Origin: Yoonia litorea
GTDB lineage: Bacteria > Pseudomonadota > Alphaproteobacteria > Rhodobacterales > Rhodobacteraceae
Reading direction: 5' to 3'
Assembly: GCF_900114675.1 (NCBI RefSeq)
Contig: NZ_FOZM01000001.1
Location: forward strand, 1,922,001 to 1,986,000
DNA: 64,000 nucleotides
Below the pieces are notes generated by a model. It was not told the origin of the DNA. It worked only from the letters and a program-made list of their open reading frames with translations, and searched no databases. Shown here in pieces: positions 21,847 to 61,136 of the stretch (the stretch's first letter is position 1; the number at the start of each line of letters is the position of its first letter). Position numbers and translations under genes: made by a program.

Positions 21847-22917
21847 TCAGTCCTTTGGGGCCAAGGTCGATCGCATGACCGGATACGCCAGAAGCTCGAC
21901 GGTGTTGGGAGGTGTGCCATCCTTGAGCCAGCCAATCAGAGCTGCGGCGGCCAGCCTGCCCATTTCGCGATGCGGTACATGAACCGTTGTCAGTGGCGGA
22001 TATGCCACTTGGGCCAGCTCGATATCGTCAAACCCGATGATCGACACGTCATCGGGCACATGAATGCCGCTATCACGCGCTTGCCTGAGCGCGCCGACCG
22101 CCAGAACATCGTTACCACAAAAGACGGCTGATGGTGGGTTGCTGGCGGACATCGCCTGCTTGAAGGCAATCGCCCCTTCCTCGATCCCGTAGCTTGTTTC
22201 GATGAACAACAGGTTCTCTTCAGGCAATCCTTTGTCCTGCATTGCCGCCTGAATACCAAGGTAGCGTTCCATCGCGCGGTCGTTTGAGGCGGTTTCAGCC
22301 GAAATGAGCGCCAACTGCCTGTGGCCCATGTCAATCACCTGACGTGCCATGTCGCGCATCGCAGCGGCGTTGTCGAAGCCCACTGACGGTCTGCCTGAGC
22401 TTGGATCGAAGGCCCATGTAATGATCGTAGGAATGCCTTGAGCTGCGAGAAAGTCATAAATGGCCTGATCGCGCTTATGTCCGATCAAAAGCAAGGCATC
22501 GGCGCCACGTGCGACCAGCGCCTTGACCTGTTCGGCTTCGTTCGCAGCACTGTATCCGGTACTGGCCACCAGCATCGTATAGCCATGCGCCGATAATTCG
22601 TCCTGAAACGCCTGCAGCCCCCTTGCGAAAACCGCGTTTTCCATCGTGGGGATAATCGCACCAACCGTGTTTGTTCTGCGTGCGGCCATCACGCGCGCAC
22701 CGAAGTGGGGCGAATAGCCCAATTGTGCGATTGTGGCTTCGACCTTTGCCCGCGTCGCCGGCGCGACCTGTGCAGGGAAATTGATCACCCTTGAGACCGT
22801 CGCAGTCGAGACGCCGGCCGCCGCTGCCACGTCCTGAAGCGTCGGTAGTGATGTGGTATTCGCCATAACTATTTCACATTGCCCATAAATTTCAATTCGT
22901 CCAGCCACTTCGGTCAT
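21847..22917 (-). CDS. LacI-family transcriptional repressor, divergent from the TRAP/sulfonate operon
   Basis: 356 residues (339 if the inner ATG at 22866 is used). The LacI HTH is TLQDVAAAAGVSTATVSRVI followed by PATRAKVEATIAQLGY, then a periplasmic-binding-type effector domain with VGAIIPTMENAVFARGLQAF, IPTIITWAF, SAVFCGNDVLAVGALRQARD and DDVSIIGFDDIELA. The upstream start has AGGG 7 bases away; the inner one lacks a site but gives the more usual distance to the HTH. Two LacI-type operators (22935-22971) lie between it and the gene at 23009. By position it should repress the TRAP-hps operon, with DHPS or a breakdown product as likely inducer; this is inference. Confidence 0.85.
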   Translation of the reverse strand: MTEVAGRIEIYGQCEIVMANTTSLPTLQDVAAAAGVSTATVSRVINFPAQVAPATRAKVEATIAQLGYSPHFGARVMAARRTNTVGAIIPTMENAVFARGLQAFQDELSAHGYTMLVASTGYSAANEAEQVKALVARGADALLLIGHKRDQAIYDFLAAQGIPTIITWAFDPSSGRPSVGFDNAAAMRDMARQVIDMGHRQLALISAETASNDRAMERYLGIQAAMQDKGLPEENLLFIETSYGIEEGAIAFKQAMSASNPPSAVFCGNDVLAVGALRQARDSGIHVPDDVSIIGFDDIELAQVAYPPLTTVHVPHREMGRLAAAALIGWLKDGTPPNTVELLAYPVMRSTLAPKD

Positions 22918-23219: not shown

Positions 23220-24368
23220 ATGGATACCAAAGACCGCAATGAACTTGCGTCGGCAGAGCGCCGGAACTTTCTCAAGCTGACAGCAACAGGTGGCTTCACA
23301 GCCGCATTGGTTGCTGGCGCAGCAGGAACGCTCTGGTCAACAGAAGCAGCGGCACAATCTGCAAACGAAGAACGCGAGCGTGAAGCGGCAGCTGATCACG
23401 TGATGACGATTGCCACAGCCTATGTGCTGGGCGCATCACGCAGCTATCCGATCATGCAGCTGGATCTTAAAGAAAACATCCAGAACGCAACCAACGGTAA
23501 GGTCTACGTAAAACTCGCACCTGGTGGTCAGCTTGGTGCAGGCGGTGCGCTTGTTCAGGCGGTACAGGGTGGCACCATTCAGGCCGCACAGCACTCGCTT
23601 TCGAACTTTGCGCCTTTCGCATCGACCGTTGACCTGATCAACATGCCTTACCTTTGCGGCTCCAACCAGCGTTTCACCAACCTCGTGACATCCGACTTCT
23701 GGAACAGCAACGTCACTCCGCGCATCGAAGAGAACGGCTTTAAGCCACTGTTCTATGTCAACATCGACCCACGTGTCGTTGCGGTACGCAAGGGCGGTAA
23801 CGCCGTCATCACACCGGGCGATATGGAAGGGATCAAGTTCCGCGTTCCCGGTTCCGCGATGCTGCAGCAGTACTACCGCCTTGTCGGTGCAAACCCGACA
23901 CCTGTTGCATGGGGCGAAACGCCGTCCGCGATCCAGCAGGGTGTTGCAGACGCCCTCGACCCATCGGTTGGCGCGCTCTTCGTCTTTGGCTTCAAGGACA
24001 TCTTGTCCCACGTGACCTTCACGCAGGCGGTGCCGGACAGCCAAGTTTATTCTTGTAACCTTGAGTGGTTCAACTCAATGCCATCCGACGTACAGGAAGG
24101 CATTATGTGGGGTTCAGAGATGACAGCCCATCAGAACCTCGCCAAAGTTCCATCAGCCCGCGCCTATGCGATGGCCGAACTGGTCAAGGCCGGCGTAGAG
24201 TTCCATTCGCTGACCGACGACCAGCTGGCCGAATGGCAGGAAGCTGGTGGCTACCAGCGCTCCGAATGGGACGAGTTCAAAGTCGAGCTGGCCGGTTCCA
24301 TGGACAACTTTGCCCAGATGGAAGAGGCCGCAGGCACGATGGGCAAGTATTTCGTCCACGACGCCTAA
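23220..24368 (+). CDS. dctP: TRAP transporter substrate-binding protein (likely DHPS)
   Basis: 382-residue DctP-type periplasmic protein. It has a twin-arginine signal, ERRNFLKLTA (Arg14-Arg15), followed by the hydrophobic stretch GGFTAALVAGAAGTLW and an AAAQ cleavage region, so it is exported folded by Tat. The mature part has YPIMQLDLKENIQNATNGKV, GGTIQAAQHSLSNFAPF, GIKFRVPGSAMLQQYYRLVG and NPTPVAWGETPSAIQQGVAD, the usual TRAP-P landmarks including the Arg of KFRVP that binds the acidic group of the ligand. GGGAGGAG precedes the ATG. Placed before hpsNOP-like genes, it is most likely the DHPS-binding component. Confidence 0.9.
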   Translation: MDTKDRNELASAERRNFLKLTATGGFTAALVAGAAGTLWSTEAAAQSANEEREREAAADHVMTIATAYVLGASRSYPIMQLDLKENIQNATNGKVYVKLAPGGQLGAGGALVQAVQGGTIQAAQHSLSNFAPFASTVDLINMPYLCGSNQRFTNLVTSDFWNSNVTPRIEENGFKPLFYVNIDPRVVAVRKGGNAVITPGDMEGIKFRVPGSAMLQQYYRLVGANPTPVAWGETPSAIQQGVADALDPSVGALFVFGFKDILSHVTFTQAVPDSQVYSCNLEWFNSMPSDVQEGIMWGSEMTAHQNLAKVPSARAYAMAELVKAGVEFHSLTDDQLAEWQEAGGYQRSEWDEFKVELAGSMDNFAQMEEAAGTMGKYFVHDA

Positions 24369-24377
24369 AAGACCCGA

Positions 24378-24413
24378 GGGGTGCCCGTTCGGGGCGCCCC
24401 CACCCCCCTTTTT
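24378..24413 (+). terminator. GC-rich hairpin with T-run between TRAP binding protein and permease genes
   Basis: Stem GGGGTGCCC (24378-24386) and GGGCGCCCC (24392-24400) with one G-T wobble and loop GTTCG, followed by C-run and TTTTT (24409-24413). It probably ends or pauses most transcripts after the binding-protein gene, giving more of it than of the permeases downstream. Confidence 0.65.
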
Positions 24414-24479
24414 CAAGCATGTCAGATTGAACGCGCCGCCGGTGCCGTCTCTTGATGTGCGAACTGATCGGGATCCGCC

Positions 24480-24992
24480 ATGGAAACCTTGCGCAAAATT
24501 GACAAGAACGCCGAGCGCTGGATGCTTCTGACCTTCTACGTGATGCTCGTCATCACGATGGCCATCGAAGTGCTGCGCCGCGAGATCTTTGCTTACTCGT
24601 CAATCTGGGGCGAAGAGATCGTCCGCTACTCATTCATCTACCTTGCCTGGATCGGTGCTGCTGCTGCGGTCAAAGAACGTGCACACATCCGTATTGATGT
24701 GATCATGCACTATCTGCCGACCCGCCCGAAGGCAGTTCTCTATATTTTCGGGGACATCGTGATGCTCGTCGTCGCGCTGATTGCAGTCTACTGGTCGTGG
24801 GAAGCGGTTCACGTCTCTTGGAAGTTTGGCTCTGTGACAGACGGGCTGCGCATTTCCAAAGTGTGGTTCCTGTTGGCCGTGCCACTGGGCTTTGCCCTGA
24901 TGATCTGGAGACTTCTCCAGTCCATGCGCCGTGACTTTATTTCGCTCAAGACAGGCAAGCCTGTCTACGAGGGCGACACTCTCTTCGATTAG
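24480..24992 (+). CDS. dctQ: TRAP transporter small permease subunit
   Basis: 170 residues with four membrane helices, the standard DctQ layout. Landmarks are LTFYVMLVITMAIEVLRREI, IWGEEIVRYSFIYLAWIGAA (the EE-x-x-R motif that marks DctQ proteins), KERAHIRIDVIMHYLP and a last helix WFLLAVPLGFALMIWRLLQS. It stabilises the large subunit and helps dock the binding protein in the inner membrane. It begins after the hairpin at 24378 and ends 11 bases before the large-subunit gene. Confidence 0.9.
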   Translation: METLRKIDKNAERWMLLTFYVMLVITMAIEVLRREIFAYSSIWGEEIVRYSFIYLAWIGAAAAVKERAHIRIDVIMHYLPTRPKAVLYIFGDIVMLVVALIAVYWSWEAVHVSWKFGSVTDGLRISKVWFLLAVPLGFALMIWRLLQSMRRDFISLKTGKPVYEGDTLFD

Positions 24993-25003
24993 GGGCCAGC
25001 CAG

Positions 25004-26332
25004 ATGCTTTGGAATACTGTTCAACAAACCGTCGAGCTGGGCTGGGACTTCTATGTTCCCGTCATCCTCTTCGTTGCTCTAATCGCGCTCGCAGTCCCTG
25101 TCTGGGCCGCTATCGGCTCTTCGGCGATCCTGATGCTGCTCATGTCCGGCGACTTGCCGCTCAGCCTTGTCGGTGAGCGTCTCTTTACTGGCATTGATGC
25201 CTTTGCCCTCACGGCGATCCCCCTCTTTATTCTGACCGGCGACGTGTTGGTGCGGACGGGGTTGTCGCGAAAATTCCTCGACGTGGCCGAGGCGCTCACC
25301 TGCTTTACCAAGGGCGGCTTCGGCTCTGCGACTGTTCTTGTCTGCGGTATGTTTGCTGCCATTTCCGGTTCTGACGCGGCGGGTGCGGCTGCGGTGGGAC
25401 GCATGACCATCGCGCGGCTGGTCGAGGCGGGATATCCTCGTCCATATGCATGTGCGCTGGTGGCTGCGGGTGCCTGTACCGGCATTCTGATCCCGCCATC
25501 CATCGCCTATATCATCATCGGCCTTGTTCTGGGGATATCGGCATCAACCCTGTTTCTGGCCGCATTGATCCCCGGGCTTTGCATTCTCTTTGCGATCCTG
25601 ATCACCAACCTCGTGATGAACCGCATCTACGCCTACGAAGGCGGCGGCAACATGACATTTGGTGAATGGCTGGCCAACCTTGGCCGTTCGCTGAAGTCAG
25701 GCTGGTATGCCTTCATCGTCCCTGGCATCATCTTTTACGGCATCTTTTCGGGCCGTCTGACCCCGACCGAAGCCGGTGCGACGGCGGTGGTCGTGACGAT
25801 CATCATGGGCTTTATCCTAGGCACGCTGAAATTTGCCGACTTCCCGGCGATGTTGGTCAGCTCGGCCAAGGTGAACGGTGTCATCCTGCCGATCATCGCC
25901 TTCTCGGCACCACTCGCCGAGGCGCTGGCGATCATGGGCGTGCCACAGGGCTTCGTGACAGCTGCAACAGGTCTCTCAGACGAGCCTTGGGTTCTGATCC
26001 TGCTGATGATCGGCATCCTGATTGCTGCAGGCTGTGTGATGGAAACCACCCCGAACATCGTGATCCTCGCACCGATCCTGATGCCACTGGCCGAAAACAT
26101 CGGCATGAACGAAATCCAGTTCTGCGTGATGATGATCACCGCGCTGGGGGTCGGTTTCATCACGCCGCCGCTTGGCCTCAACCTCTTTGTTGTCTCCGGG
26201 ATTACGGGTGAATCGATCCTCAAGATCGCAGTAAAGGCCGTGCCCTTTGTGCTGTGTATGTTCGTGGTCGTTCTCTTCATCGCCTACGTTCCGGCCGTTT
26301 CGACAACGCTTCTTCCTGACATCTACAAGTAG
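25004..26332 (+). CDS. dctM: TRAP transporter large permease subunit
   Basis: 442 residues with about 12-13 membrane segments. DctM landmarks are ALTAIPLFILTGDVLVRTGL, AISGSDAAGAAAVGRMTIAR, GACTGILIPPSIAYIIIGLV (an elevator-domain loop), TPTEAGATAVVVTIIMGFIL and GFITPPLGLNLFVVSGITGE. It carries out sodium-coupled uptake of the ligand delivered by the binding protein. It starts 11 bases after dctQ and is followed 11 bases later by the hpsN-like gene, tying transport to sulfonate oxidation. Confidence 0.92.
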   Translation: MLWNTVQQTVELGWDFYVPVILFVALIALAVPVWAAIGSSAILMLLMSGDLPLSLVGERLFTGIDAFALTAIPLFILTGDVLVRTGLSRKFLDVAEALTCFTKGGFGSATVLVCGMFAAISGSDAAGAAAVGRMTIARLVEAGYPRPYACALVAAGACTGILIPPSIAYIIIGLVLGISASTLFLAALIPGLCILFAILITNLVMNRIYAYEGGGNMTFGEWLANLGRSLKSGWYAFIVPGIIFYGIFSGRLTPTEAGATAVVVTIIMGFILGTLKFADFPAMLVSSAKVNGVILPIIAFSAPLAEALAIMGVPQGFVTAATGLSDEPWVLILLMIGILIAAGCVMETTPNIVILAPILMPLAENIGMNEIQFCVMMITALGVGFITPPLGLNLFVVSGITGESILKIAVKAVPFVLCMFVVVLFIAYVPAVSTTLLPDIYK

Positions 26333-26343
26333 GACCAAACCCA

Positions 26344-27651
26344 ATGACACGCGAATACCTCAAGAAAGCGACCCTGACGGCGCAGTCCGGTGCTTCTGAT
26401 GTGCACGAGCTCGTGCAGGGCATTCTCAACGACATCGAGGCTGGCGGCGATGCCAAGGCGATGGAATATGCGGCCAAGTTCGACAAATACGATGGCAATG
26501 TCATCCTGACCGACGAAGAAGTCGCGGCTGCCGAAGCTTTGGTTCCTGCAAAGCTGAAAGAAGACATTCAGTTCGCCCATGACAACGTCAAGCGATTTGC
26601 AGAGGCGCAGAAAGCAACGGTCAGCGATATTCAGTACGAAATCGCACCAGGTTTCATCGCAGGCCAAAAGGCAATCCCCGTCGATGCAGCCGGTTGCTAC
26701 GTCCCCGGTGGGCGTTACAGCCACATCGCATCGGCTATCATGACCGTGACAACTGCCAAGGTCGCAGGCTGCAATCATATCGCTGTGGCGTCACCTCCCC
26801 GCCCCGGTGTCGGGATTGCGCCTGCGATCGTTTATGCCGCCAAGATTTGCGGTGCTGACAAAATCATCGCCATGGGCGGTGTGCAGGGTGTTGCCGCAAT
26901 GACGTTCGGCCTCTTTGGTCTGCCGAAGGCCAACATCCTTGTTGGCCCGGGAAATCAGTTTGTCGCCGAGGCAAAGCGTATTCTGTTTGGCCGTGTCGGT
27001 ATCGATATGATCGCTGGGCCAACAGACAGCCTGATCCTCGCCGACAAGACCGCCGATCCGCATATCGTCGCAACTGACCTCGTGAGCCAGGCCGAACATG
27101 GCTACAACAGCCCCGTCTGGCTGGTCACCGACGACCGTGCTCTGGCTGAGGACGTCATGAACCGCGTCCCTGAACTGATCGAGGATCTGCCCGAGCTCAA
27201 CCGCGACAATGCCCGCGCTGCTTGGCGCGACTATGCCGAGGTGATCGTCTGCAAGGATCGTGAAGACATGGCAGCCTGTTCCGACGAATACGCGCCAGAG
27301 CACCTGACAGTGCAGGCCGAAGACCTGCCTTGGTGGCTGGAGCGTCTGTCCTGCTACGGCTCGCTCTTTCTTGGTGAGGAGACCACCGTGTCCTATGGCG
27401 ACAAGGCATCCGGGACGAACCACGTACTGCCTACCTCGCGCGCGGCGTCCTATACGGGTGGCTTGTCGGTGCACAAGTACATGAAGATCGTCACGTGGCA
27501 GCAGACCACCCGTGAGGCCTCCAAGCGTGTTGCCGAGGCGACTGCCCGCATTTCACGTCTGGAAGGTATGGAAGGGCACGCCCGCGCAGCAGATGTGCGT
27601 CTGGCCAAATACTTCCCCGGCGAGAACTTCGACCTGACACCCCATGAGTGA
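26344..27651 (+). CDS. hpsN: DHPS/sulfolactaldehyde dehydrogenase HpsN (histidinol-dehydrogenase family)
   Basis: 435-residue zinc enzyme of the HisD fold. By comparison with histidinol dehydrogenase the metal ligands are Gln249 and His252 (QAEHG), Asp353 and His412, and the catalytic pair is Glu319-His320 (EYAPEHLTV). The late segment is YTGGLSVHKYMK instead of the SSGLSVWDFL of true HisD, and the gene lies in a TRAP/dehydrogenase cluster rather than a his operon. HpsN oxidises (R)-2,3-dihydroxypropane-1-sulfonate to (R)-sulfolactate in two NAD-dependent steps through the aldehyde. AGGA precedes the ATG; the end overlaps the next gene by 8 bases. Other HisD paralogs oxidise other polyols, but the ComDE genes below favour a sulfonate substrate. 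Confidence 0.85.
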   Translation: MTREYLKKATLTAQSGASDVHELVQGILNDIEAGGDAKAMEYAAKFDKYDGNVILTDEEVAAAEALVPAKLKEDIQFAHDNVKRFAEAQKATVSDIQYEIAPGFIAGQKAIPVDAAGCYVPGGRYSHIASAIMTVTTAKVAGCNHIAVASPPRPGVGIAPAIVYAAKICGADKIIAMGGVQGVAAMTFGLFGLPKANILVGPGNQFVAEAKRILFGRVGIDMIAGPTDSLILADKTADPHIVATDLVSQAEHGYNSPVWLVTDDRALAEDVMNRVPELIEDLPELNRDNARAAWRDYAEVIVCKDREDMAACSDEYAPEHLTVQAEDLPWWLERLSCYGSLFLGEETTVSYGDKASGTNHVLPTSRAASYTGGLSVHKYMKIVTWQQTTREASKRVAEATARISRLEGMEGHARAADVRLAKYFPGENFDLTPHE

Positions 27652-28405
27652 CCCTGCCCAACTCTTCGACCTTACAGGCCGTGTTGCTTGCGTCACCGGC
27701 GCAAGTGCGGGTCTGGGCCAGCGCGCGGCAACCGTGCTTGCCGCCGCGGGGGCAAAGGTCGTCGGCGTGGCACGCCGCGCCGAGATGCTGGACGACTGGG
27801 TCGCCGGTATCGGGGACAACGCGGCAGCAGTTTCGGCTGATCTGTCCAAGCGTGCGGAAATTAGTACGATATCGAACGAAATTGCCGAGTCTTTCGGGCC
27901 GCCAGATATTCTCGTGCATGCCGCAGGCATCAACACCAGAGAAACAGCCGATGAGGTGACGCCAGAAGGGTGGGACATCACAATTGATCTCAACCTTGCA
28001 GCGCCGTTCTTTCTGTCTCAAGCCTTCGCGCCAGCGATGAAGGCCAAAGGCTGGGGGCGGATTGTGAATTTCGCATCACTCCAGACCACACGGGCCTTCC
28101 CGGGCGGGATCGCCTATGGTGCCTCAAAGGCAGGGATCGGTCAGCTGACCCGCGCCATGGCAGAGGCATGGTCCAAGGACGGGATCACCGCCAATGCCAT
28201 TGGTCCGGGGTTCTTTCCGACAGAACTAACGGGTCCAGTTTTTGCCGACCCTGAACGCGCGGCGCGCAATGCTGCACAGACCTGCATCGGCCGCAACGGG
28301 GAACTGTCAGATATTGACGGGCCGATCCTGTTTCTGTGCTCTGAAGCATCGTCCTACGTGACCGGTCAGGTGCTGATGGTGGACGGGGGGTTCACGGCAA
28401 AATGA
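27644..28405 (+). CDS. hpsO: HpsO-like short-chain dehydrogenase
   Basis: 253-residue classical SDR: TGASAGLG nucleotide-binding turn at residues 18-25, the strand/loop ILVHAAGINT, and Tyr158-x3-Lys162 (YGASK) as catalytic pair, with GPGFFPTELT after it. In DHPS-degrading bacteria HpsO works with HpsP to convert the enantiomer that HpsN cannot use, through a keto intermediate. The gene starts 8 bases inside hpsN and its stop overlaps hpsP by 4 (ATGA), so the three are translated together. Taken alone the sequence would only justify 'SDR oxidoreductase'; the symbol comes from context. Confidence 0.75.
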   Translation: MSDPAQLFDLTGRVACVTGASAGLGQRAATVLAAAGAKVVGVARRAEMLDDWVAGIGDNAAAVSADLSKRAEISTISNEIAESFGPPDILVHAAGINTRETADEVTPEGWDITIDLNLAAPFFLSQAFAPAMKAKGWGRIVNFASLQTTRAFPGGIAYGASKAGIGQLTRAMAEAWSKDGITANAIGPGFFPTELTGPVFADPERAARNAAQTCIGRNGELSDIDGPILFLCSEASSYVTGQVLMVDGGFTAK

Positions 28406-29875: not shown

Positions 29876-30382
29876 TTGAACATCGATAAGAAAATCGTGG
29901 ACGATCTGGTCGCCAACGATGTTTCGTTTGTGACCACCGTCCCTTGCAAGCAACTTGCAGGCGTGATCGAAGAAGTCGATCAACGCCCTGAAATCTTTCA
30001 CATTCCATCCAACAAGGAAGACGAGGGCATGGGCCTTTGCGCCGGTGCTTTCATGGGCGGCAAGCGCCCTGCGATCATCATGCAGAACACCGCCATTGGT
30101 GTGACCATCAATACGCTGGCCACTTTGACCCAGTTCTACAGGATGCCTTTGCCCATGATCATCAGCTACCGGGGCGAGTTGCGTGAACCCGTCGCCTGTC
30201 AGGTGGAAATGGCTGTGCATACCAAAGCACTGCTGGAACAGATGCTGATACCGACCTACCACTTCCACTGGCAAAAGGATGTCGAGGAATTCGACAACAT
30301 CCTGAAATACACATTCATGGCGAATAAACCTGTGGCGATCCTGACCGACGCCAATTTCTGGGGAGGCTACGGCGACCAATGA
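29876..30382 (+). CDS. comD: Sulfopyruvate decarboxylase, alpha subunit
   Basis: 168 residues, the TPP-pyrimidine domain of a split thiamine enzyme. Landmarks are SFVTTVPCKQLAGVIEEVD, HIPSNKEDEGMGLCAGAFMG (with the Glu that activates TPP in this region), MQNTAIGVTINTLATLTQFY and MPLPMIISYRGE. I chose TTG 29876 because AGGAGA lies 9 bases before it and the protein then begins as ComD proteins do; an ATG at 29783 lies inside the upstream gene. ComD with ComE decarboxylates 3-sulfopyruvate to sulfoacetaldehyde. Phosphonopyruvate decarboxylase is the near relative, but it is usually one chain, and no phosphonate genes are nearby. The stop overlaps comE (ATGA). Confidence 0.85.
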   Translation: MNIDKKIVDDLVANDVSFVTTVPCKQLAGVIEEVDQRPEIFHIPSNKEDEGMGLCAGAFMGGKRPAIIMQNTAIGVTINTLATLTQFYRMPLPMIISYRGELREPVACQVEMAVHTKALLEQMLIPTYHFHWQKDVEEFDNILKYTFMANKPVAILTDANFWGGYGDQ

Positions 30383-30933
30383 TCCGTTCCGAAATTCTCA
30401 AAGAGATCGCACCGATCCTGAAAGACCAGCTTATCGTCTGCAATATCGGTATTCCAAGCCAGGAATTGCATGCCATCATGGACCAGCCCAGCAACTTCTA
30501 CATGTTGGGCACAATGGGTCTGGCGTCGTCGATTGGTCTGGGTCTGGCGCTCGCACAACCAAAGACCGTGATTTCCATCGATGGTGACGGCTCGATCCTG
30601 ACAAACCTGGGCACATTGCCGACCATCGGTAACAACTGCCCCAGCAACTACATCCTGATGATCATCGACAACGGGTCTTACGGATCAACCGGTGACCAAC
30701 CGACCTACACGGGGCGCAAGACCGACCTTGCCGGTATGGCGCGTGCGGCTGGCTGCGACAACGTTGTTGAAGTGCAGGACGTAGATTGCGGCAAGGCGCT
30801 GCAAGAGGCGATCGATGCCCAGAACGGCACTGTACTGGTCGTCAAATGCGATAGCGGCAACGCCAAGATGCCTGTCATCACAATGGATCCTGTAGTGATC
30901 CGCCACCGCTTTATGGAAGCTGTCAAAGCGTAA
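30379..30933 (+). CDS. comE: Sulfopyruvate decarboxylase, beta subunit
   Basis: 184 residues forming the TPP-diphosphate domain. The thiamine motif runs from ISIDGDGSILTNLG to IIDNGSYGSTGDQPTYT, with GDG and Asn as the magnesium-diphosphate ligands; the opening LIVCNIGIPSQELHAI and MLGTMGLASSIGLGLALAQ are typical of ComE. Separate alpha and beta genes of about 170-185 residues in this order is the ComDE layout. The product, sulfoacetaldehyde, is normally cleaved by Xsc to sulfite and acetyl phosphate; xsc is not in this window. One base separates its stop from the next gene. Confidence 0.87.
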   Translation: MIRSEILKEIAPILKDQLIVCNIGIPSQELHAIMDQPSNFYMLGTMGLASSIGLGLALAQPKTVISIDGDGSILTNLGTLPTIGNNCPSNYILMIIDNGSYGSTGDQPTYTGRKTDLAGMARAAGCDNVVEVQDVDCGKALQEAIDAQNGTVLVVKCDSGNAKMPVITMDPVVIRHRFMEAVKA

Positions 30934-30934
30934 G

Positions 30935-32017
30935 ATGGCACCAAAGATCCACTCCAGCGCGGATGCCCGCCGTCTTGCACGCCGCCGTCTGCCCTGGATG
31001 GTCTTTGACTATATCGACGGTGCCGCAGGCACCGAAACAGGGGCCGCACGCAATCGTGCGGCCTTTGACGCGATCGACCTGACACCGCGCGTTCTGCGCG
31101 ATGTAAGCAAACGGTCACTTTCTGTCCCTCTTTGGGGCAAGCCAACCAAAGCCCCCTTCGGCATCAGCCCGATGGGGATGTGCAACCTCTCAGGACCTGG
31201 CGCCGATCTGATGTTGGCCCGCCTTGCCGCGCGCGAAGAGGTGCCGGTGGGCGTCTCGACCGTCGCCTCTACCCCGATGGAAAAGATGATAGAGGTGGCG
31301 CAAGGGCATGCGTGGTTTCAGCTCTATTTCTCGGGTGATGGCACTGGCACGTTCAAACTGGTCGAGCGGGCCAAGGCGGCAGGTTATGAAACCATCGTTC
31401 TGACAGTCGACGTGGCCGAGGTGGGACGCCGTCCGCGTGAGTTGCGTCACGGGTTCACCATGCCTTTCAAGATTGGTGTCAAACAGTTCATCGACTTTGC
31501 CCTACACCCGCAGTGGTCGATTTCCTCGCTGATTGCCGGCAAACCGCAAATGGCGAACTTTCTGATGGATGGCTACGATTTCGATCGCACGGAAAGCCGC
31601 GCGAAAGCCGATTTCGAGACGCTCAAGCGCCTGCGCGCGATGTGGCCGGGCAAGCTGGTCGTGAAAGGTGTGCTTGACGTCGATGACGCGCGGATGCTCA
31701 AGGCTGAAGGCGTGGATGCCATACAGGTCTCCAGCCACGGCTCAAGACAGCTCGACAGCGCGCCGCCCCCGATCCTGAAACTTGCCGAGATCCGCGAGGC
31801 GCTAGGCGCGGACTACCCGCTGTTCTACGACACCGGCTTGCGCGGCGGCGAGGACATCGTCAAAGCCTATAGGCAGGGTGCGAACTTTACCTTCTTCGGG
31901 CGAGTCCTACAGTTCGCGATTGCAGCAGGCGGAGAAGAAGGTCTGCGTCAGCTCTGGGATGTGCTCAAATCGGAAACCAGCATCACCCTCGCACAAGTCG
32001 GCGAAACGCGCTTGTAG
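30935..32017 (+). CDS. FMN-dependent alpha-hydroxy-acid dehydrogenase, candidate sulfolactate dehydrogenase
   Basis: 360-residue member of the L-lactate dehydrogenase/glycolate oxidase family. Family landmarks are VFDYIDGAAGTETG (the active-site Tyr region), APFGISPMGMCNL, WFQLYFSGD, VDVAEVGRRPRELRHGF, KGVLDVDDARML, and the catalytic His268 with Arg271 in SSHGSRQLDSAPPPI (usual form SNHGGRQLD), then GLRGGEDIVKAYRQGA at the FMN phosphate site. It begins 1 base after comE, so it is very probably the last gene of this operon. The step missing between HpsN (sulfolactate) and ComDE (sulfopyruvate) is exactly an alpha-hydroxy-acid oxidation, so sulfolactate is the best candidate substrate. This is inferred from context; lactate or glycolate cannot be excluded. 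Confidence 0.75.
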   Translation: MAPKIHSSADARRLARRRLPWMVFDYIDGAAGTETGAARNRAAFDAIDLTPRVLRDVSKRSLSVPLWGKPTKAPFGISPMGMCNLSGPGADLMLARLAAREEVPVGVSTVASTPMEKMIEVAQGHAWFQLYFSGDGTGTFKLVERAKAAGYETIVLTVDVAEVGRRPRELRHGFTMPFKIGVKQFIDFALHPQWSISSLIAGKPQMANFLMDGYDFDRTESRAKADFETLKRLRAMWPGKLVVKGVLDVDDARMLKAEGVDAIQVSSHGSRQLDSAPPPILKLAEIREALGADYPLFYDTGLRGGEDIVKAYRQGANFTFFGRVLQFAIAAGGEEGLRQLWDVLKSETSITLAQVGETRL

Positions 32018-33811
32018 TCACCGATCCATGTCTGGCGACATTAAACGTCCGCTCTCATCGATCACGTAATAGCCGGCCAACTCTCTCAGCGCATCAGCCG
32101 CCGGTTTCTCATTCTGCCACGCCATCATGGACAGTCCTAACATGCGTGGCATGAGCATGGGCCACATCTGGGAATCCTCGGTGGTGAACTCCGACCAGAA
32201 TGCCCCCTGCACGCCAATGATACGGTCTGACAAATCTTCCTCTGGCACGGGATCCCAGTTCACGGTGTCTTCGAGATCGACAAACGCAGCCCAGCTTGCA
32301 CCCCAATCATCGGGATCGCCTGTGTGGGCCATGTCAAAGTAAAGATGTTGCGCAGGGGTCATCACCACGTCATAGCCCGCTCTCGCGGCCTCCAGTCCTG
32401 GCCCCTGACCTGTCCAACTGAACAGGATCGCATTGCTTCCGATCCCGCCATTCGATCCTTGCGCGGCTTCTTCCCAGGCTGCGGGTCGAAGCCCCTTGCT
32501 TGACGCGTATGCTGCAAGTTTCGCAATGGTCCAGCCTTGCAGGTCCTGAGTTGTCTGCAGGTCGTGCTCCTGCATGAGTGCCAAGGCGCGCGGCGTATGC
32601 ATCCATGTGTTCTTAGGAAGTTCATCACATCCTAGGTGCAGATGACCGAACGGAAACAACGCCGAGATGCCATCAACCAGTTTTTCAAGGACGTCCCAAG
32701 TCTTGGGCATCGCGGGGTTCAATACATTGCCGCGATACCCCTGTACCGACGTCTCACCGCCGGTGTCGTCAGGGTCGCGGGTGTCAGGATAAACGGCGGC
32801 AAGGCCAAGCGCATGGGCCGGTGCTTCGATTTCAGGCAGTACCTCGATATTGAGCGCCGCGGCATGTGCGATGATCTGTCTGACAGTCTCATGGTCATAA
32901 CTGCCACCTTGCATCGGTGCCGCCGTGAAGAGGCCCGGAAGGAATTGGCCTTCTCCGCGAAAGGTCAGGTGCTGTTCCAGTTCAGGCAGGGCCGGCACTG
33001 GTATTCGGAAAGCTTCGTCATCGGCAAAGTGCCAGTGAAACCGGTTCAACTTCAGCATGGCCATCAGATCAAGAAGCGCGCAGATCGTATCAGGTGCATA
33101 AAAATGCCGCGCTGTATCGAGATGCTGGCCGCGCCAATCAAAACGAGGCCCATCAGAGATTTCTCCGATCGGTAACTCCCCCGATCTCAGCAACGTCATC
33201 AGGGTGACTAGCGCATAAAATTCGCCGCCGTATGAGGCCGTTTCGATGATGACCTGCTCTGGCGTGTTGCGAAGACGATAGGCATCCTGAGGGAGATCAC
33301 GCTTGTTCACGACCACCGGGAACGTGCCTCGAAAAGCCAGTTTCTGGCGGTCTGCAAGCGCGGCTGCGTTTTCGTAGGCGCGGCCCGAACCCGACACGCC
33401 ATCGACGGCAATCGTTTCTCCTTGAGGGTCCCAACTTGTCGGTTGCGGAACGACTGCGAGGCCATCAATGGGTAAGACAGGCAGGTTTCGTGACACGTCA
33501 CGGCCAGCATGAGTTGGCGGCAAAGGCAGCAGCTCTCCGCCCATGCGGATCGCGGGGCCGATAGGCAACCACGCGCGATTGGCAGGCGTGAAACCTCCTG
33601 CATAGCGCAATGTGAAATGATGGACCTCGCCGGGGTTCAGATCGGGCAACGAGACCTCGATATAGCTGCCAAGCGCACGTTTTTCGGTGCCACCAGAGAC
33701 GACCTGCAAAGGCGCCATCCCCGAACAGCAAAATACTGCGGCCTGCAACTTGCGGTCAGGGATCAGCGAACAAAGCAGATCATCCCCGTCTATGTGACAG
33801 TTGTAGTCCAT
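32018..33811 (-). CDS. GH20 beta-N-acetylhexosaminidase
   Basis: 597 residues. The GH20 barrel is marked by FDWRGQHLDTARHFY, LNRFHWHFADDEAFRIPV, EVLPEIEAPAHALGLAAVYP and the catalytic Asp396-Glu397 in LHLGCDELPK. The usual HxGGDE reads H-L-G-C-D-E, a Gly-to-Cys change beside the catalytic pair. The N-terminal 150 residues are beta-rich, as in other members, and no signal peptide is seen, which points to cytoplasmic cleavage of imported chitobiose-type disaccharides by terminal GlcNAc or GalNAc release. It starts one base after the stop of the GntR gene, and its own stop directly abuts the stop of the convergent FMN enzyme. Confidence 0.88.
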   Translation of the reverse strand: MDYNCHIDGDDLLCSLIPDRKLQAAVFCCSGMAPLQVVSGGTEKRALGSYIEVSLPDLNPGEVHHFTLRYAGGFTPANRAWLPIGPAIRMGGELLPLPPTHAGRDVSRNLPVLPIDGLAVVPQPTSWDPQGETIAVDGVSGSGRAYENAAALADRQKLAFRGTFPVVVNKRDLPQDAYRLRNTPEQVIIETASYGGEFYALVTLMTLLRSGELPIGEISDGPRFDWRGQHLDTARHFYAPDTICALLDLMAMLKLNRFHWHFADDEAFRIPVPALPELEQHLTFRGEGQFLPGLFTAAPMQGGSYDHETVRQIIAHAAALNIEVLPEIEAPAHALGLAAVYPDTRDPDDTGGETSVQGYRGNVLNPAMPKTWDVLEKLVDGISALFPFGHLHLGCDELPKNTWMHTPRALALMQEHDLQTTQDLQGWTIAKLAAYASSKGLRPAAWEEAAQGSNGGIGSNAILFSWTGQGPGLEAARAGYDVVMTPAQHLYFDMAHTGDPDDWGASWAAFVDLEDTVNWDPVPEEDLSDRIIGVQGAFWSEFTTEDSQMWPMLMPRMLGLSMMAWQNEKPAADALRELAGYYVIDESGRLMSPDMDR

Positions 33812-33812
33812 C

Positions 33813-34568
33813 TCAGTCCAATCTCAGTTCAGATACAAAGTCGTAGAGGTCAGAGCGGTAATAGCCGCTGGTGAACTCGACAGGTCGGCCCGATTGCAAA
33901 TATCCCGTACGTTCGATTTGCAGGATCGCTGTTCCTTCTGGCAGCTCCAGCAACTCCGCAACGGAGGCCGTCGCGTTTATCGCGGTGACGCGCTGTATCG
34001 CCCGGTTAGGGGCCATGCCGCGGGCGCGAAGGAGCTCATAGAGCGACACATCGACTTTGTCGGGACGCGGCAAGACATCTTCTGGCAGCGAAGAGTGCTC
34101 AAGCGCCATTGGAACCGCATCACCGCTACGCAAACGATGGATGCGCGCAACCCGATGATGCGGCGATAAGCCGAGCACCATCGCCTCGGTCGGGGTCGGC
34201 ACAAACAACCCTTTGAGAAGTACACGGCTTGATGACTGTAGCCCGCGGGCTTGCAGGTTTTCCGTAAAGGACACCAGCGAGGTCAGCGATTGCTCTGTTC
34301 TTTCGCCTGTCTTGCGGACAAATGATCCCGCACCTTGTCGCTGTTCAATCATGCCATCTGCGACGAGTTCGGCGATGGCCTTGCGCACTGTGACGCGACT
34401 GACATCGGCGATGTCCGCGATCTCGCGTTCTGAAGGAAGCTGATCTTCGGCAGCAAGTGCGCCCGAGGCCACCATGGCGCTGATATGACGACAAAGCTGC
34501 TTGTACCGTGGACCGCGCCCTTCGCGGTACCATTCGCTTTGCTCCAGCGCATCAACAAGGTCAGTCAT
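33813..34568 (-). CDS. GntR/HutC-family repressor of the amino-sugar cluster
   Basis: 251 residues. Winged HTH at about residues 20-85 (RYKQLCRHISAMVASGAL, QLPSEREIADIADVSRVTVR, KAIAELVADGMIEQRQGAGS), then a UTRA effector domain with QSLTSLVSFTENLQARGLQS, VPTPTEAMVLGL and ILQIERTGYLQSGRPVEFTS. UTRA regulators such as NagR/DasR respond to amino-sugar phosphates, so GlcNAc-6-P or GalNAc-6-P is the likely effector. GGAAAGGAA precedes the ATG at 34568; an extension to 34613 would run into the operator. It is transcribed with the hexosaminidase and is divergent from the transporter operon. Confidence 0.85.
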   Translation of the reverse strand: MTDLVDALEQSEWYREGRGPRYKQLCRHISAMVASGALAAEDQLPSEREIADIADVSRVTVRKAIAELVADGMIEQRQGAGSFVRKTGERTEQSLTSLVSFTENLQARGLQSSSRVLLKGLFVPTPTEAMVLGLSPHHRVARIHRLRSGDAVPMALEHSSLPEDVLPRPDKVDVSLYELLRARGMAPNRAIQRVTAINATASVAELLELPEGTAILQIERTGYLQSGRPVEFTSGYYRSDLYDFVSELRLD

Positions 34569-34591
34569 GGCCGTTTCCTTTCCGCAATGGC

Positions 34592-34711
34592 TGGTATGCA
34601 AAAACAATACCATTCGCAGACCAATTTACAATCATGTATTTACATGCAAACGTCAATACGCTGATATAAAATACTTTTTTCGAGATTTTCTAGACTGGTA
34701 TTATATTGGTA
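34592..34711. promoter_or_regulatory. Operator-like dyads between GntR gene and sugar transporter operon
   Basis: Three elements: TGGTAT (34592-34597) and ATACCA (34607-34612) as an inverted repeat; the perfect palindrome CATGTATTTACATG (34633-34646); and two TGGTA copies at 34696-34700 and 34707-34711. The region is strikingly AT-rich and holds the divergent promoters. The TGGTAT/ATACCA dyad is the most NagR/DasR-like, as those sites are built on TGGT/ACCA halves. Confidence 0.5.
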
Positions 34712-34783
34712 GCAAAATGGCATTTGTCGAGTAACCTTGATTCAACAAGGTCGATTCGTCGACAAACACCGGGGGGGATCACA

Positions 34784-35716
34784 ATGACAGAGATGACGCA
34801 GTCTTTGCCGCAGGGTGTTGCAAAGCCAAAGACAAAGACGCTGTCAGAGGCCGTTTTTGCGTGGCTGCTCATTGGCCCTGCCATGCTCTTCATTGCTGTC
34901 ATCGTGGCATGGCCACTTGCCGAAACAATCCGGCTTTCGTTCATGGAAGCTGGGTTGGGCGGCGAAGAGTATGTAGGCCTTGCCAACTACCAGGATCTCG
35001 TCGAAAGCCGGAAGTTCCGTGATACGATTGTCCGGACGTTCTACTGGATGTTTCTCTCCGTCGCGCTCAAGCTCGTGCTTGGCCTTATCGGTGCGACGCT
35101 TTTGAATGCCGCCGTTCCCGGTCGCGGTCTGTTCCGCGTTCTGGTCATGCCGCCTTGGATCATCCCGATGGCGATCGGCATGATCGGCTGGCTGTGGCTC
35201 TATAACGGATATTTTGGTGTGCTCTCCGGCACGATGATGACCCTTGGCATCACGGACGGACCGTTTGAGTTTCTGGCCTACAAGCAATCCGCCTTCTATT
35301 CGGCCGTCGTCGCTGACGTCTGGGTGGGCACACCCATGGTGACGCTCTTTTTCCTTGCCGCGATGCAAGGTGTCAGCCGTGACCTTTACGAGGCCGCATG
35401 GGTCGATGGTGCAGGTCGCTGGTACCGTTTCCGTCGCATCACGATCCCGCAGATCATGCCGGTGATCGTGTCAATGTCCCTGCTTTCTGCCATTTTCACC
35501 TTCAACAGCTTCGAGATCATCTGGATCCTGACCGAAGGCGGACCGCGCGGCGCCACAACGACGCTGATCGTGGACACCTACAAGACCGCTATCGGCAACT
35601 TCAAATTCGGCGAAGGCTCCGCCCGCGCTGTGATCATCGTGATCCTGCTGGGGGTGTTCTCGCTGCTTTACCTGAATGTGCTCAAGTTCGTGAACCGCAA
35701 GTACGGGACCAAGTAA
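34784..35716 (+). CDS. Sugar ABC transporter permease 1 (CUT1 family)
   Basis: 310 residues, six membrane helices, MalF-like. The first helix is FAWLLIGPAMLFIAVIVAWP; the conserved ATPase-contact loop is EAAWVDGAGRWYRFRRITIP, the EAA motif. Start ATG 34784 was preferred because GGGGGGG precedes it by 6 bases; the longer frame from 34706 begins inside the promoter region. It forms the inner-membrane channel with the next gene product. First gene of a ten-gene operon for amino-sugar uptake and use. Confidence 0.9.
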   Translation: MTEMTQSLPQGVAKPKTKTLSEAVFAWLLIGPAMLFIAVIVAWPLAETIRLSFMEAGLGGEEYVGLANYQDLVESRKFRDTIVRTFYWMFLSVALKLVLGLIGATLLNAAVPGRGLFRVLVMPPWIIPMAIGMIGWLWLYNGYFGVLSGTMMTLGITDGPFEFLAYKQSAFYSAVVADVWVGTPMVTLFFLAAMQGVSRDLYEAAWVDGAGRWYRFRRITIPQIMPVIVSMSLLSAIFTFNSFEIIWILTEGGPRGATTTLIVDTYKTAIGNFKFGEGSARAVIIVILLGVFSLLYLNVLKFVNRKYGTK

Positions 35717-35717
35717 G

Positions 35718-36560
35718 ATGATGGACAAATACACAAAACTTCAGCTTGTCGGCATCTATGCAGCGGTCACGGTGTTCCTGATCTTCATCCTGCTGCCATT
35801 CTTCGAGATGTTCATGGCGTCACTGCGCCCTCTCGAGCACCTGTTTCGCAGCCCTTATCAGTTCTGGTCAGATGACTTCAGCTTTCAGGCCTACAGCGAC
35901 ATGTGGGAGACGGTGCCGCTCTTGGGTCGCTACATCTTCAACTCGGTATTCATCGCAACTGCCGTCACGCTGCTCACGATGATCTTTGTAGTGCCAGCCG
36001 CCTATGCCTATGCCCGTCTCGATTTTCCGTTCAAGAACGGCTCTCTCGCGATTTTTCTGGGCGTCAACATGTTCACTGGTGCGGTTCTGCTGATCCCGCT
36101 TTACCGTGTGTTGCGCAGCATAGGCCTGTTGAACACCTACTGGGCCATGATCATTCCGGGCGTCGCGTTCCTGATCCCGACCGGCATCTGGCTGCTGCGG
36201 TCTTACCTTGAAAAGATCCCGCGCGAGCTTGAAGAAGCTGCTTTCGTCGATGGTGCGAGCCGCTTGTACACCCTGCGCCGTGTTGTCCTGCCGCTGGCAA
36301 CGCCTGGCCTGATCGTCGTCGGTACCGCCGTCTTCATCGGCGCTTATGCCCAGCAATTCCTCTTTGCGATCACGTTCAACCAGCAACGTGAACTGCAACC
36401 CCTGCCAGCCGGCCTCTTTGAGTTCATCGGCTATCAGGATGTCACCTGGAACCAGATGATGGCCGCTGCCCTGACAGGCATCCTGCCAGTCATGGTCATC
36501 TTCCTGTTCCTTCAGAAATACCTCGTGGCGGGTCTAACGGCCGGTGCGGTCAAAGAATAG
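35718..36560 (+). CDS. Sugar ABC transporter permease 2 (CUT1 family)
   Basis: 280-residue MalG-like permease. Landmarks are FEMFMASLRPLEHLFRSPYQ, LPLATPGLIVVGTAVFIGAY and the EAA loop EEAAFVDGASRLYTLRRVVL, followed by the terminal KYLVAGLTAGAVKE characteristic of MalG-type partners. It starts 1 base after permease 1; two ATGs are adjacent (35718 and 35721). With permease 1 it translocates the sugar delivered by the binding protein downstream. Confidence 0.9.
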   Translation: MMDKYTKLQLVGIYAAVTVFLIFILLPFFEMFMASLRPLEHLFRSPYQFWSDDFSFQAYSDMWETVPLLGRYIFNSVFIATAVTLLTMIFVVPAAYAYARLDFPFKNGSLAIFLGVNMFTGAVLLIPLYRVLRSIGLLNTYWAMIIPGVAFLIPTGIWLLRSYLEKIPRELEEAAFVDGASRLYTLRRVVLPLATPGLIVVGTAVFIGAYAQQFLFAITFNQQRELQPLPAGLFEFIGYQDVTWNQMMAAALTGILPVMVIFLFLQKYLVAGLTAGAVKE

Positions 36561-36586
36561 CCAACAACCAACTTAGGGAGACTACT

Positions 36587-37798
36587 ATGAAATTCACGAA
36601 ACTGACACTTGGTGCGGTGCTTTTGTCCAGCGGGGCCAGCATGGTCTTTGCCGACAGCCACGCGACAGAATTGCACTTTATCATGTGCGGCGGCGAAGTT
36701 CGCGAAGCGGACCAGGCCGTGGTTGACCAGTTCATCGCCGACCATGAAGGCGTGACCGTCAATCTGGAGGCTGTGCCATGGGGTACCTGCCAGGACAAGT
36801 CGCTGACGCTCGCCGCAGCCGGTGATCCGCCATCCATCGCCTACATGGGTTCGCGCACCCTGCGCCAGTTGGCAAACAACGACCTGATTGTGCCTGCTGA
36901 GATCCCTGCAGACGCCCCCTACCAGCCTGGTGTTCTGAACACGGTCACCATCGAAGGCACAACATGGGGCTACCCGCACGCTTTCTCGACCAAGGCGCTT
37001 TATATCAACTGTGATCTGGTCGAGGCCTCCGGTCAGGAATGTGTCGCGCCAACCACTTGGGACGAGATGTTCGCAATGGCACAGGGCGTTGTCGATAACA
37101 CTGACGCCGCCGGTGTTGGCCTTGCTGGGAAGGACTTCGACAACACGATGCACCAGTTCCTGAACTACCTCTATTCCAACGGTGGTGTGGTGATTGATCC
37201 GGTAACCGGCGAAAACAAGCTCGACAGCCAGCAGACACGCGAAACGCTTGACTTCTATGGCCGTCTGGCAACCGTTTCTCAGGAAGGTCCGACCGCTTGG
37301 GAACGTGACCAGCTCAAGGATCTGTTCAACGACGGCCAGATCGCAATGTATGTCCAGGGTCCTTGGGGCTATGGCCAGCACAACGAAGACATCAACCAGC
37401 TGGTTGTCCCGGTCCCTGCAGGCCCTTCCGGTGAAAGCGGTTCGATCCTGATCACAGACTCGATTGTTGTCTTCAAAGGCTCCGGCCATGAAGAACTGGC
37501 ACAGGAACTGGCACAGCGGATCACGTCCGGTGATGCACAGTATGACCTTGACAGCTCATGGGGTCTGACACCGATCTTTGACTATGCCGCGATGGGCAAA
37601 ACAGACCTCTACTATGAAAGCGGTGTCTGGCCGAACTTCACAGCGTCAATCTCGACCGGTGGTCCAGAGCCAATCGTAGAGGACTTCAAGTCACTGCAGT
37701 CCGTCTTCACCAACATGGTGCAGGGCATCCTGCTGGAAGACGACACCGTCGACAATCTGGTGACAATCGCCGGAGAAGAGCTGGACGAAGCTCTCTAA
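36587..37798 (+). CDS. Sugar ABC transporter substrate-binding protein
   Basis: 403-residue extracellular binding protein of family 1. Signal peptide with core LTLGAVLLSSGASMVFA and cleavage before DSHA. Mature landmarks are LEAVPWGTCQDKSLTLAAAG, DPPSIAYMGSRTLRQLANND, TTWGYPHAFSTKALYIN and QIAMYVQGPWGYGQH, all usual in oligosaccharide binders. AGGGAG precedes the ATG. From the neighbouring hexosaminidase, NagA and kinase the ligand is expected to be chitobiose, GlcNAc or GalNAc. A hairpin follows the gene. Confidence 0.9.
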   Translation: MKFTKLTLGAVLLSSGASMVFADSHATELHFIMCGGEVREADQAVVDQFIADHEGVTVNLEAVPWGTCQDKSLTLAAAGDPPSIAYMGSRTLRQLANNDLIVPAEIPADAPYQPGVLNTVTIEGTTWGYPHAFSTKALYINCDLVEASGQECVAPTTWDEMFAMAQGVVDNTDAAGVGLAGKDFDNTMHQFLNYLYSNGGVVIDPVTGENKLDSQQTRETLDFYGRLATVSQEGPTAWERDQLKDLFNDGQIAMYVQGPWGYGQHNEDINQLVVPVPAGPSGESGSILITDSIVVFKGSGHEELAQELAQRITSGDAQYDLDSSWGLTPIFDYAAMGKTDLYYESGVWPNFTASISTGGPEPIVEDFKSLQSVFTNMVQGILLEDDTVDNLVTIAGEELDEAL

Positions 37799-37811
37799 GT
37801 TTCCTCCCGAG

Positions 37812-37839
37812 TTGGGGCGGCGGTGCGCTGCCGCCTCAA
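37812..37839 (+). terminator. Hairpin after the sugar-binding protein gene
   Basis: TTGGGGCGGC (37812-37821) and GCCGCCTCAA (37830-37839) form a 10-base stem with one G-T wobble and an 8-base loop. No T-run follows. Placed behind the binding-protein gene, it should protect that part of the message or attenuate read-through. Confidence 0.55.
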
Positions 37840-37874
37840 TATACGCCAACAAATTCAGATAGGTAGACAACGCC

Positions 37875-38981
37875 ATGGCCACCCTTGACCTAATGTCCAT
37901 CAGCAAGTCCTTCGGTTCTGCAAAAGTGCTGCATGACATCAGTCTTGCGATCAATGACAAGGAATTTGTGGTTTTCGTCGGCCCTTCAGGTTGCGGCAAG
38001 TCCACCCTGCTACGGATCATCGCCGGGCTGGAAGAGGCAACCTCAGGTCAGATCATGATCGGCGGCGAGGATGTCAGTACCGCGCATCCCGTTGATCGTG
38101 GCATCTCGATGGTCTTCCAGTCTTACGCGCTCTACCCTCATCTGAGCGTCTATGAAAACATCGCCTTCCCGCTGCGCGTGCAAAAGATGGAAAAGGCGGA
38201 ACTCGACGCCCGCGTGCAGCAGGCCGCCGGCATCCTGCAACTGACCGACAAGTTGCAGTTGAAGCCCGGCCAACTTTCTGGTGGTCAGCGCCAGCGCGTT
38301 GCGATCGGCCGTTCGATTGTGCGCAACCCCAAGGTTTTCTTGTTTGACGAGCCTCTTTCCAACCTCGACGCCGCTTTACGCGGTGACATGCGGGTTGAAC
38401 TCAGCCAATTGCACCGCAGTCTTGACGCCACGATGGTTTACGTAACCCACGACCAGATTGAGGCGATGACCATGGCCGACCGGATCGTGGTTCTAAATGG
38501 TGGCCGTGTCGAACAGTTCGGCACACCTATGGAGCTTTATCATCATCCAAAGACAAAGTTCGTGGCCCAGTTCATCGGGCAACCGAACATGAATCTCATC
38601 CCAGCAACGGTCAGTGCTGCTGATCCGACGGGCGTGAAAGTCGCCCTCTCCGGCGGTCACGAGATGGTCCTTCCGGTAGACGGGGGTCACATCTCAACCG
38701 GAGATCGCGTCGAAGTCGGCATTCGCCCAGAGCATGTCCATATTGGCGACGGGGGCTTCCCGATTTCCGTCAATGTGCTTGAGCGCCTCGGCGGCGTGTC
38801 GATCACTTATGGCACCGTCGGCGACGGCGTGCGTTTCTGCGCATCGCTTCCCGGTGATGCGCAAGTGCAAGAGGGCCAGCCGCTTGCGCTGAACGTGTCG
38901 CCGGAAGACTGCCATGTATTTGATGCCTCAGGCGATGTTCTGCGTCGCAAAGCGGCCCCTGCAATCGCCGTAAACGGATAA
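37875..38981 (+). CDS. Sugar ABC transporter ATP-binding protein (UgpC/MsmK type)
   Basis: 368 residues. The nucleotide-binding domain has Walker A GPSGCGKST near residue 36, Q-loop MVFQSYALYPHLSVYENI, signature LSGGQRQRVAIGRSIVR near 135 and Walker B VFLFDEPLSNLDAALR, then VYVTHDQIEAMTMADR. The C-terminal 120 residues are the regulatory OB/TOBE domain (MNLIPATVS, VEVGIRPEHVHIGDGGF). It energises the two permeases before it. It ends 4 bases before the oxidoreductase gene. Confidence 0.93.
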   Translation: MATLDLMSISKSFGSAKVLHDISLAINDKEFVVFVGPSGCGKSTLLRIIAGLEEATSGQIMIGGEDVSTAHPVDRGISMVFQSYALYPHLSVYENIAFPLRVQKMEKAELDARVQQAAGILQLTDKLQLKPGQLSGGQRQRVAIGRSIVRNPKVFLFDEPLSNLDAALRGDMRVELSQLHRSLDATMVYVTHDQIEAMTMADRIVVLNGGRVEQFGTPMELYHHPKTKFVAQFIGQPNMNLIPATVSAADPTGVKVALSGGHEMVLPVDGGHISTGDRVEVGIRPEHVHIGDGGFPISVNVLERLGGVSITYGTVGDGVRFCASLPGDAQVQEGQPLALNVSPEDCHVFDASGDVLRRKAAPAIAVNG

Positions 38982-38985
38982 GATC

Positions 38986-45552: not shown

Positions 45553-46282
45553 CGCGTACACGTTCGAGATTTGCGTGAGCACGTCGCAGGCACTGATAGC
45601 CGCCGCGCCTTATGCCGACCGCATTGAATTGTGCATCGGCCTCGATATCGGTGGGCTGACGCCGGACTACGGTCTGATGGCGCAAGCCGCCGCATCAGGA
45701 CTTGAGACCCACGTCCTGATCAGGGCGCGCGCCGGTGACTTCACAATGAACGCCGAGGACCTCGAAGCCGCCTGCGCGAATATCAAAGTGGTTCGCGATC
45801 TCGGCCTCAAAGGTATCGTGATCGGTGCCGAACGCGGTGGGCAACTTGATCTCGATCCATTGCGCGTGATGGCAGATGCGGCGGGCCACCTTGATCTGAC
45901 GCTTCACCGTGTGATTGATGTCGTGGATGACCCGCTATCGGCTCTTGATGCGGCGATATCCTTAGGCTTCAGCCGTATTCTGACATCAGGTGGTGCCCCT
46001 TCTGCGCCGGAAGGTTTGACAGGACTTCGGCAACTGCACGATGCGGCGGCTGGCAGGATCGAGATCATGGCCGGCGGCGGGATCCGAAGCGCAAATCTTG
46101 GCGAACTCATCGAAAATCTGCCAGTGACGTCATTTCACGCGTCATGCACCGCGTCTCGACCTCTCGCCCAGCGCTACCAAAGTTTCGGGTTTGGGCGAGA
46201 GCAACGCCGCTTTGACGAAGACGAGGCGCGCGCGATTGCACAGATCCTGGGTAGACCGATACGTGATGGACGACACGCATGA
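45539..46282 (+). CDS. cutC: CutC-family protein
   Basis: 247-residue TIM-barrel protein of the CutC family: FEICVSTSQALIAAAPYADR, IELCIGLDIGGLTPDYGLM, HVLIRARAGDFTMNAEDLEA, LHRVIDVVDDPL, RILTSGGAPSAPEGLTGL and IEIMAGGGIRSANLGELIE. CutC was first described in connection with copper homeostasis, but the role is doubtful and the fold suggests an enzyme. Start ATG 45539 gives the standard length, and overlaps nagA by 14 bases, so it is translated as part of the amino-sugar operon. This context suggests a function in sugar metabolism rather than copper. Confidence 0.88.
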   Translation: MPRNNAYTFEICVSTSQALIAAAPYADRIELCIGLDIGGLTPDYGLMAQAAASGLETHVLIRARAGDFTMNAEDLEAACANIKVVRDLGLKGIVIGAERGGQLDLDPLRVMADAAGHLDLTLHRVIDVVDDPLSALDAAISLGFSRILTSGGAPSAPEGLTGLRQLHDAAAGRIEIMAGGGIRSANLGELIENLPVTSFHASCTASRPLAQRYQSFGFGREQRRFDEDEARAIAQILGRPIRDGRHA

Positions 46283-52498: not shown

Positions 52499-54676
<2,178 letters not shown>

Positions 54677-54689
54677 GGAGGAAGACTGA

Positions 54690-57367: not shown

Positions 57368-61130
<3,763 letters not shown>

Positions 61131-61136
61131 TCCAAG

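Follow-up and report, generated by a model that had tools for sequence, protein, structure and literature searches.

The closest described counterpart of the gene analyzed here is slcD, which is part of the hps operon in R. pomeroyi. In the re-annotation of this organism, the genes SPO0590-0598 were assigned to hpsRKLMNOPQ and slcD, with SPO0598, located right after hpsQ, being designated 'membrane-bound sulfolactate dehydrogenase slcD', and comC being annotated at SPO3187 (PMC4334477). Clusters encoding HpsNOP, SlcD, ComDE, and Xsc were reported in 2024 for Jannaschia CCS1, Ruegeria ANG-S4, and Granulosicoccus, and a CuyA group comprising R. pomeroyi and R. nubinhibens was described to feature HpsNOP, SlcD, and CuyA, the product of HpsN being R-sulfolactate (PMC11382572). 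Furthermore, SlcD was listed as an R-sulfolactate dehydrogenase, and HpsO and HpsP were described to be specific for R-DHPS and S-DHPS, respectively (PMC11131964). Literature describing SlcD as FMN-dependent was not found; the single 'FMN-dependent' passage in PMC13372026 refers to sulfoquinovose monooxygenase. ComC and SlcC catalyze the reaction that is proposed below for an FMN protein, but they are NAD(P)-linked and belong to unrelated families, ComC being a member of Ldh_2. SlcC is a member of the D-2-hydroxyacid dehydrogenase family.

An operon of this type, serving the utilization of the algal sulfonate DHPS, was found in the window, a stretch of 64,000 nucleotides from the genome of Yoonia litorea (contig NZ_FOZM01000001.1), and terminates with a gene for an FMN-dependent enzyme (hereafter FMN gene and FMN protein). 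Compared to SlcD of R. pomeroyi (SPO0598), Roseovarius nubinhibens, Jannaschia CCS1, and Ruegeria ANG-S4, this gene occupies the same slot, has the same neighbors (hpsNOPQ and comDE), and is proposed to serve the same step. The membrane-bound character of SlcD also fits the predicted attachment of the FMN protein, and this comparison by gene position revealed no difference.

Organization of the DHPS operon

The following features were assigned in the window:

21847..22917, minus strand: hpsR, divergent LacI-family regulator (PF00356 and PF13377; same place and orientation in relatives; cf. SPO0590 hpsR)
23220..26332, plus strand: hpsKLM, TRAP transporter with DctP (23220-24368, PF03480), small permease (24480-24992), and large permease (25004-26332) (orthologs 57-95% identical in relatives, most of them >70%; cf. 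SPO0591-0593)
26344..27651, plus strand: hpsN, HisD-like DHPS-3-dehydrogenase (PF00815; HpsN 81-95% identical in most relatives)
27644..28405, plus strand: hpsO, SDR, R-DHPS dehydrogenase (PF13561; synteny; stereospecificity according to PMC11131964)
28402..29382, plus strand: hpsP, Zn dehydrogenase, S-DHPS dehydrogenase (PF08240; synteny; stereospecificity according to PMC11131964)
29407..29823, plus strand: hpsQ, UspA-like protein (PF00582; cf. SPO0597)
29876..30382, plus strand: comD, sulfopyruvate decarboxylase alpha (TIGR03845)
30379..30933, plus strand: comE, sulfopyruvate decarboxylase beta (TIGR03846, 241.9 bits against a cutoff of 221.5)
30935..32017, plus strand: slcD, predicted FMN-dependent (R)-sulfolactate dehydrogenase (PF01070, catalytic residues, clade, gene context, and literature)

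The operon content originally read from the sequence was thus borne out, since HpsN, HpsO, HpsP, HpsQ, ComD, and ComE were each matched by Pfam or TIGR profiles, ComD barely exceeding its cutoff (148.3 vs. 147.95 bits). A TTG codon at 29876 probably represents the start of comD, as suggested by a ribosome-binding-like AGGAGAG and by homologs. The stop of comE at 30933 and the ATG of the FMN gene at 30935 are separated by a single base (30934), exactly as had been noted before. Because an unrelated GH20 hexosaminidase gene on the opposite strand ends at 32018, the FMN gene is the last gene of the operon. A scan for promoters and terminators yielded nothing above chance.

The position of the FMN gene matches the published SlcD slot in hpsNOPQ(-comDE) operons, and all other enzyme genes of the operon have assignments of their own. 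As the sole unassigned enzyme gene in an SlcD-type operon, the FMN gene is therefore in all likelihood slcD, encoding an FMN-dependent (R)-sulfolactate dehydrogenase, with the link between SlcD and the FMN family being drawn from operon position in relatives.

Family, residues, and predicted fold of the FMN protein

The FMN gene encodes 360 amino acids and yielded a full-length match to the Pfam family FMN_dh (PF01070; 372.4 bits against a cutoff of 24.9, E-value 2.8e-111, residues 15-359). PF01070 is its sole Pfam domain, and the ComC-type domain PF02615 (Ldh_2) was not detected in the protein. The catalytic set is complete (Y26, Y131, D159, R166, K244, H268, R271, D299, and R323), all of these residues being conserved among the sampled clade members. 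The motif around His268, SSHGSRQLDSAPPPI, had been singled out in the original prediction and is indeed present; its Ser267 (SSHG vs. SNHG) is a signature of the clade, being found in 35 out of 39 sampled members and in none of 16 paralogs, which all carry Asn at this site. Ser270, considered as a second signature, was rejected, as S, A, G, C, and N all occur at this position. Further clade-specific residues, mostly different in paralogs, include Cys83, Asn84, Ser112, Glu162, Pro167, and Gln264. The protein further features Gly81, as does (S)-mandelate dehydrogenase. Oxidases of the FMN family possess Ala at the matching position.

LldD, the FMN-dependent L-lactate dehydrogenase, shares family and chemistry with the FMN protein, but is only approximately 30% identical to it. 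The scores of the FMN protein were below the curated cutoffs of both LldD models (196 vs. 550 bits for NF033901 and 229 vs. 376 bits for PRK11197), and the genome separately encodes its own LldD (L081, 416.9 bits vs. the cutoff of 376) in addition to one further paralog (L082). An identification of the FMN gene as a plain LldD was rejected on these grounds. In a FastTree phylogeny including paralogs, all 39 slcD-type tips formed one clade (support 0.975) on a stem of 0.70 substitutions per site. A gap in identity was also visible in the match tables, slcD-type proteins reaching down to approximately 59% and others starting from approximately 43%. In the NCBI annotation, the slcD-type gene is described just as 'alpha-hydroxy acid oxidase', a label that hides slcD; annotation would benefit from a curated model of this clade.

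The AlphaFold model of the FMN protein (mean pLDDT 84, pTM 0.87) found its top fold match in the membrane-bound (S)-mandelate dehydrogenase 6bfg of Pseudomonas putida (Z 43.4, rmsd 2.2, 353 residues aligned), the runner-up reaching 40.5 over 321 residues. The two proteins are 38% identical and share the catalytic residues and Gly81, whereas the substrate of the mandelate enzyme differs from the one proposed here. The segment matching the membrane-binding region aligns without a large gap, the model having a pLDDT <50 at the adjacent residues 161-174. The best fold match, 6bfg, would fit a quinone-linked, membrane-bound enzyme, and the FMN protein is tentatively predicted to be membrane-attached and to pass its electrons to quinone.

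Gene context in related Rhodobacteraceae

The arrangement of hps, comDE, and FMN genes in the window is not a chance product, since approximately 90 other Rhodobacteraceae loci show the same block. Loci were collected from protein-similarity matches and from stretches of other genomes, and the order hpsR/KLMNOPQ-comDE-FMN prevailed among them. Specifically, of the 157 loci that contained at least one gene of the pathway, 90 hold hps, comDE, and the FMN gene, followed by loci with comDE and FMN (27), hps and FMN (7), and FMN alone (13, mostly at contig ends); loci lacking the FMN gene comprised hps with suyB (6), hps alone (4), hps with comDE (3), and comDE alone (7), these counts not representing frequencies, as the loci were partly picked for holding FMN, hpsN, or comE, and a few sites entered the set twice. 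No overlap was found between the 137 loci carrying the FMN gene and the six hps loci carrying suyB (SuyB being recognized by PF04295/PF20629). The roseobacter DHPS operon thus appears to possess two interchangeable tails, namely comDE-slcD or suyAB.

Among 395 evenly sampled Rhodobacteraceae genomes, the FMN gene was detected in 56 and comE in 83, with 48 genomes carrying both (Fisher p 1e-30, uncorrected for phylogeny). The comE gene was located ≤200 bp from the FMN gene in 44 of the 56 genomes. Conversely, 35 out of the 83 comE-bearing genomes lack the FMN gene, and these must therefore either possess another enzyme or use ComDE in a different role. Modules consisting of comDE and the FMN gene occur on stretches free of hps (L110-L112 and L129-L132), located beside a LysR gene and with otherwise varied neighbors; they tie the FMN gene to sulfopyruvate, not to DHPS. 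The complete hps-comDE-FMN block is also borne by annotated, named plasmids; in strain M382, the block is preceded by xsc at a distance of a few kb. In Jannaschia and Ruegeria loci (L008, L019, L033, and L060), the FMN gene was found in the slot where published maps place SlcD.

Several loci deviate from the common arrangement. Operons with hps and comDE, but without the FMN slcD gene, were observed in L176, L179, and L181. In SuyAB-type hps operons (L165, L167, and L169), an Ldh_2 (ComC-like) gene is located right after suyB; its product (335 aa in L169) is nearest to the L-sulfolactate dehydrogenase model, under its cutoff. Positions of comD and/or comE away from hps and slcD were noted for L173-L175, L177, L178, L180, and L182, in the case of L173 directly after NiFe-hydrogenase-type genes. 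L163 harbors an hps operon together with a three-gene tripartite-tricarboxylate-like transporter, and no slcD or suyB gene was seen in the same stretch. Moreover, L032, L067, L071, and L148 contain slcD-type genes with no hps or comDE nearby, the match in L148 being devoid of the N-terminal part.

Probable sulfolactate oxidation and alternative assignments

Xsc is encoded elsewhere in the Yoonia litorea genome (920 bits vs. the cutoff of 676), and a single-family profile search of this genome returned no match for SuyB (PF04295), in agreement with the original prediction. Sulfolactate must therefore pass via sulfopyruvate to ComDE and Xsc, a route requiring a sulfolactate dehydrogenase; the operon-linked candidate for this role is the FMN gene. 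The function suggested originally, i.e., oxidation of sulfolactate yielding sulfopyruvate, is very likely correct and receives strong support from the gene context, the logic of the pathway, and the stereochemistry.

The same prediction regarded the gene as a non-orthologous replacement, meaning an FMN enzyme performing the task of the published SlcD without being related to it, and noted that no separate slcD was found in the operon. This statement was in all probability mistaken, since the FMN gene itself resides in the published SlcD slot. SlcD has been published in exactly such clusters and, in R. pomeroyi, just after hpsQ (PMC11382572, PMC4334477). In relatives, the gene after hpsQ, hpsP, or comE is the FMN gene (L076, L140, and approximately 90 others), and a second candidate enzyme gene was not seen in their operons of that order. 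A replacement is thus unsupported and very improbable; the gene is very probably slcD in a known operon type, and as such already known. That SlcD of R. nubinhibens derives from another family, and that the FMN clade constitutes an independent type of quinone-linked sulfolactate dehydrogenase, widespread in roseobacters and not yet described, is considered extremely unlikely.

The membership of the FMN protein in the family of LldD and glycolate oxidase would also be compatible with a dehydrogenase for lactate, glycolate, or another hydroxy acid merely traveling with the operon, and balancing of pyruvate and lactate could be needed for growth on DHPS. However, the genome encodes its own LldD and a paralog, the FMN protein falls well short of the LldD cutoff, and its clade has a long, well-supported stem, is linked to comDE, and is missing from loci with suyAB, which makes this explanation hardly credible. 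A different candidate for the main sulfolactate enzyme, with the FMN enzyme as an accessory, is the one Ldh_2/ComC-like gene detected in the genome (L090), which is unlinked to the operon. A comC gene is annotated in R. pomeroyi, the best NCBIfam match of L090 is L-sulfolactate dehydrogenase, and Ldh_2 genes accompany suyB in SuyAB-type operons. Its score, however, is far under the cutoff of this model (157 vs. 500 bits); moreover, L090 shares only 38% identity with Ldh_2 of the operon type and adjoins an ABC-transporter ATPase gene, no connection to the pathway being apparent. A leading role of L090 is accordingly a distant prospect, and it could serve as a backup for sulfolactate oxidation.

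For the preferred assignment of the FMN gene as slcD, we infer the substrate and its configuration, the attachment to the membrane, and the electron acceptor as follows. SlcD would be a monotopic, membrane-attached FMN enzyme oxidizing (R)-3-sulfolactate, which HpsN makes from R-DHPS, to 3-sulfopyruvate. As deduced from knowledge of the family, His268 would accept the proton of the C2-hydroxyl while the hydride is transferred to FMN, the carboxylate would be held by Arg271 and Tyr26/Tyr131, and FMNH2 would be reoxidized by the quinone pool. ComDE would then decarboxylate sulfopyruvate to sulfoacetaldehyde, which Xsc would convert to acetyl phosphate and sulfite. Since CH2SO3 takes precedence over COOH in stereochemical nomenclature, R-sulfolactate is spatially like (S)-lactate, the enantiomer used by the FMN family; action of SlcD on the product of HpsN would fit this. 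The gap noted in the original prediction would hereby be closed, with this genome having a gene for each step that leads from DHPS via sulfolactate, sulfopyruvate, and sulfoacetaldehyde to sulfite and acetyl phosphate, the HpsO/HpsP branches being considered apart from their sulfolactaldehyde step.

Two further gene clusters were observed in the window. Directly 3' of the operon (32018-46282), an apparent amino-sugar utilization cluster comprises the GH20 hexosaminidase, a GntR/UTRA regulator, a sugar ABC transporter, and sugar-phosphate/N-acetylglucosamine-metabolism-like genes. At 52499-63017, a glycogen-metabolism-like cluster was recognized from translations, containing glgB, glgC, glgA, glgX, and pgm-like ORFs together with an amylase-type ORF.
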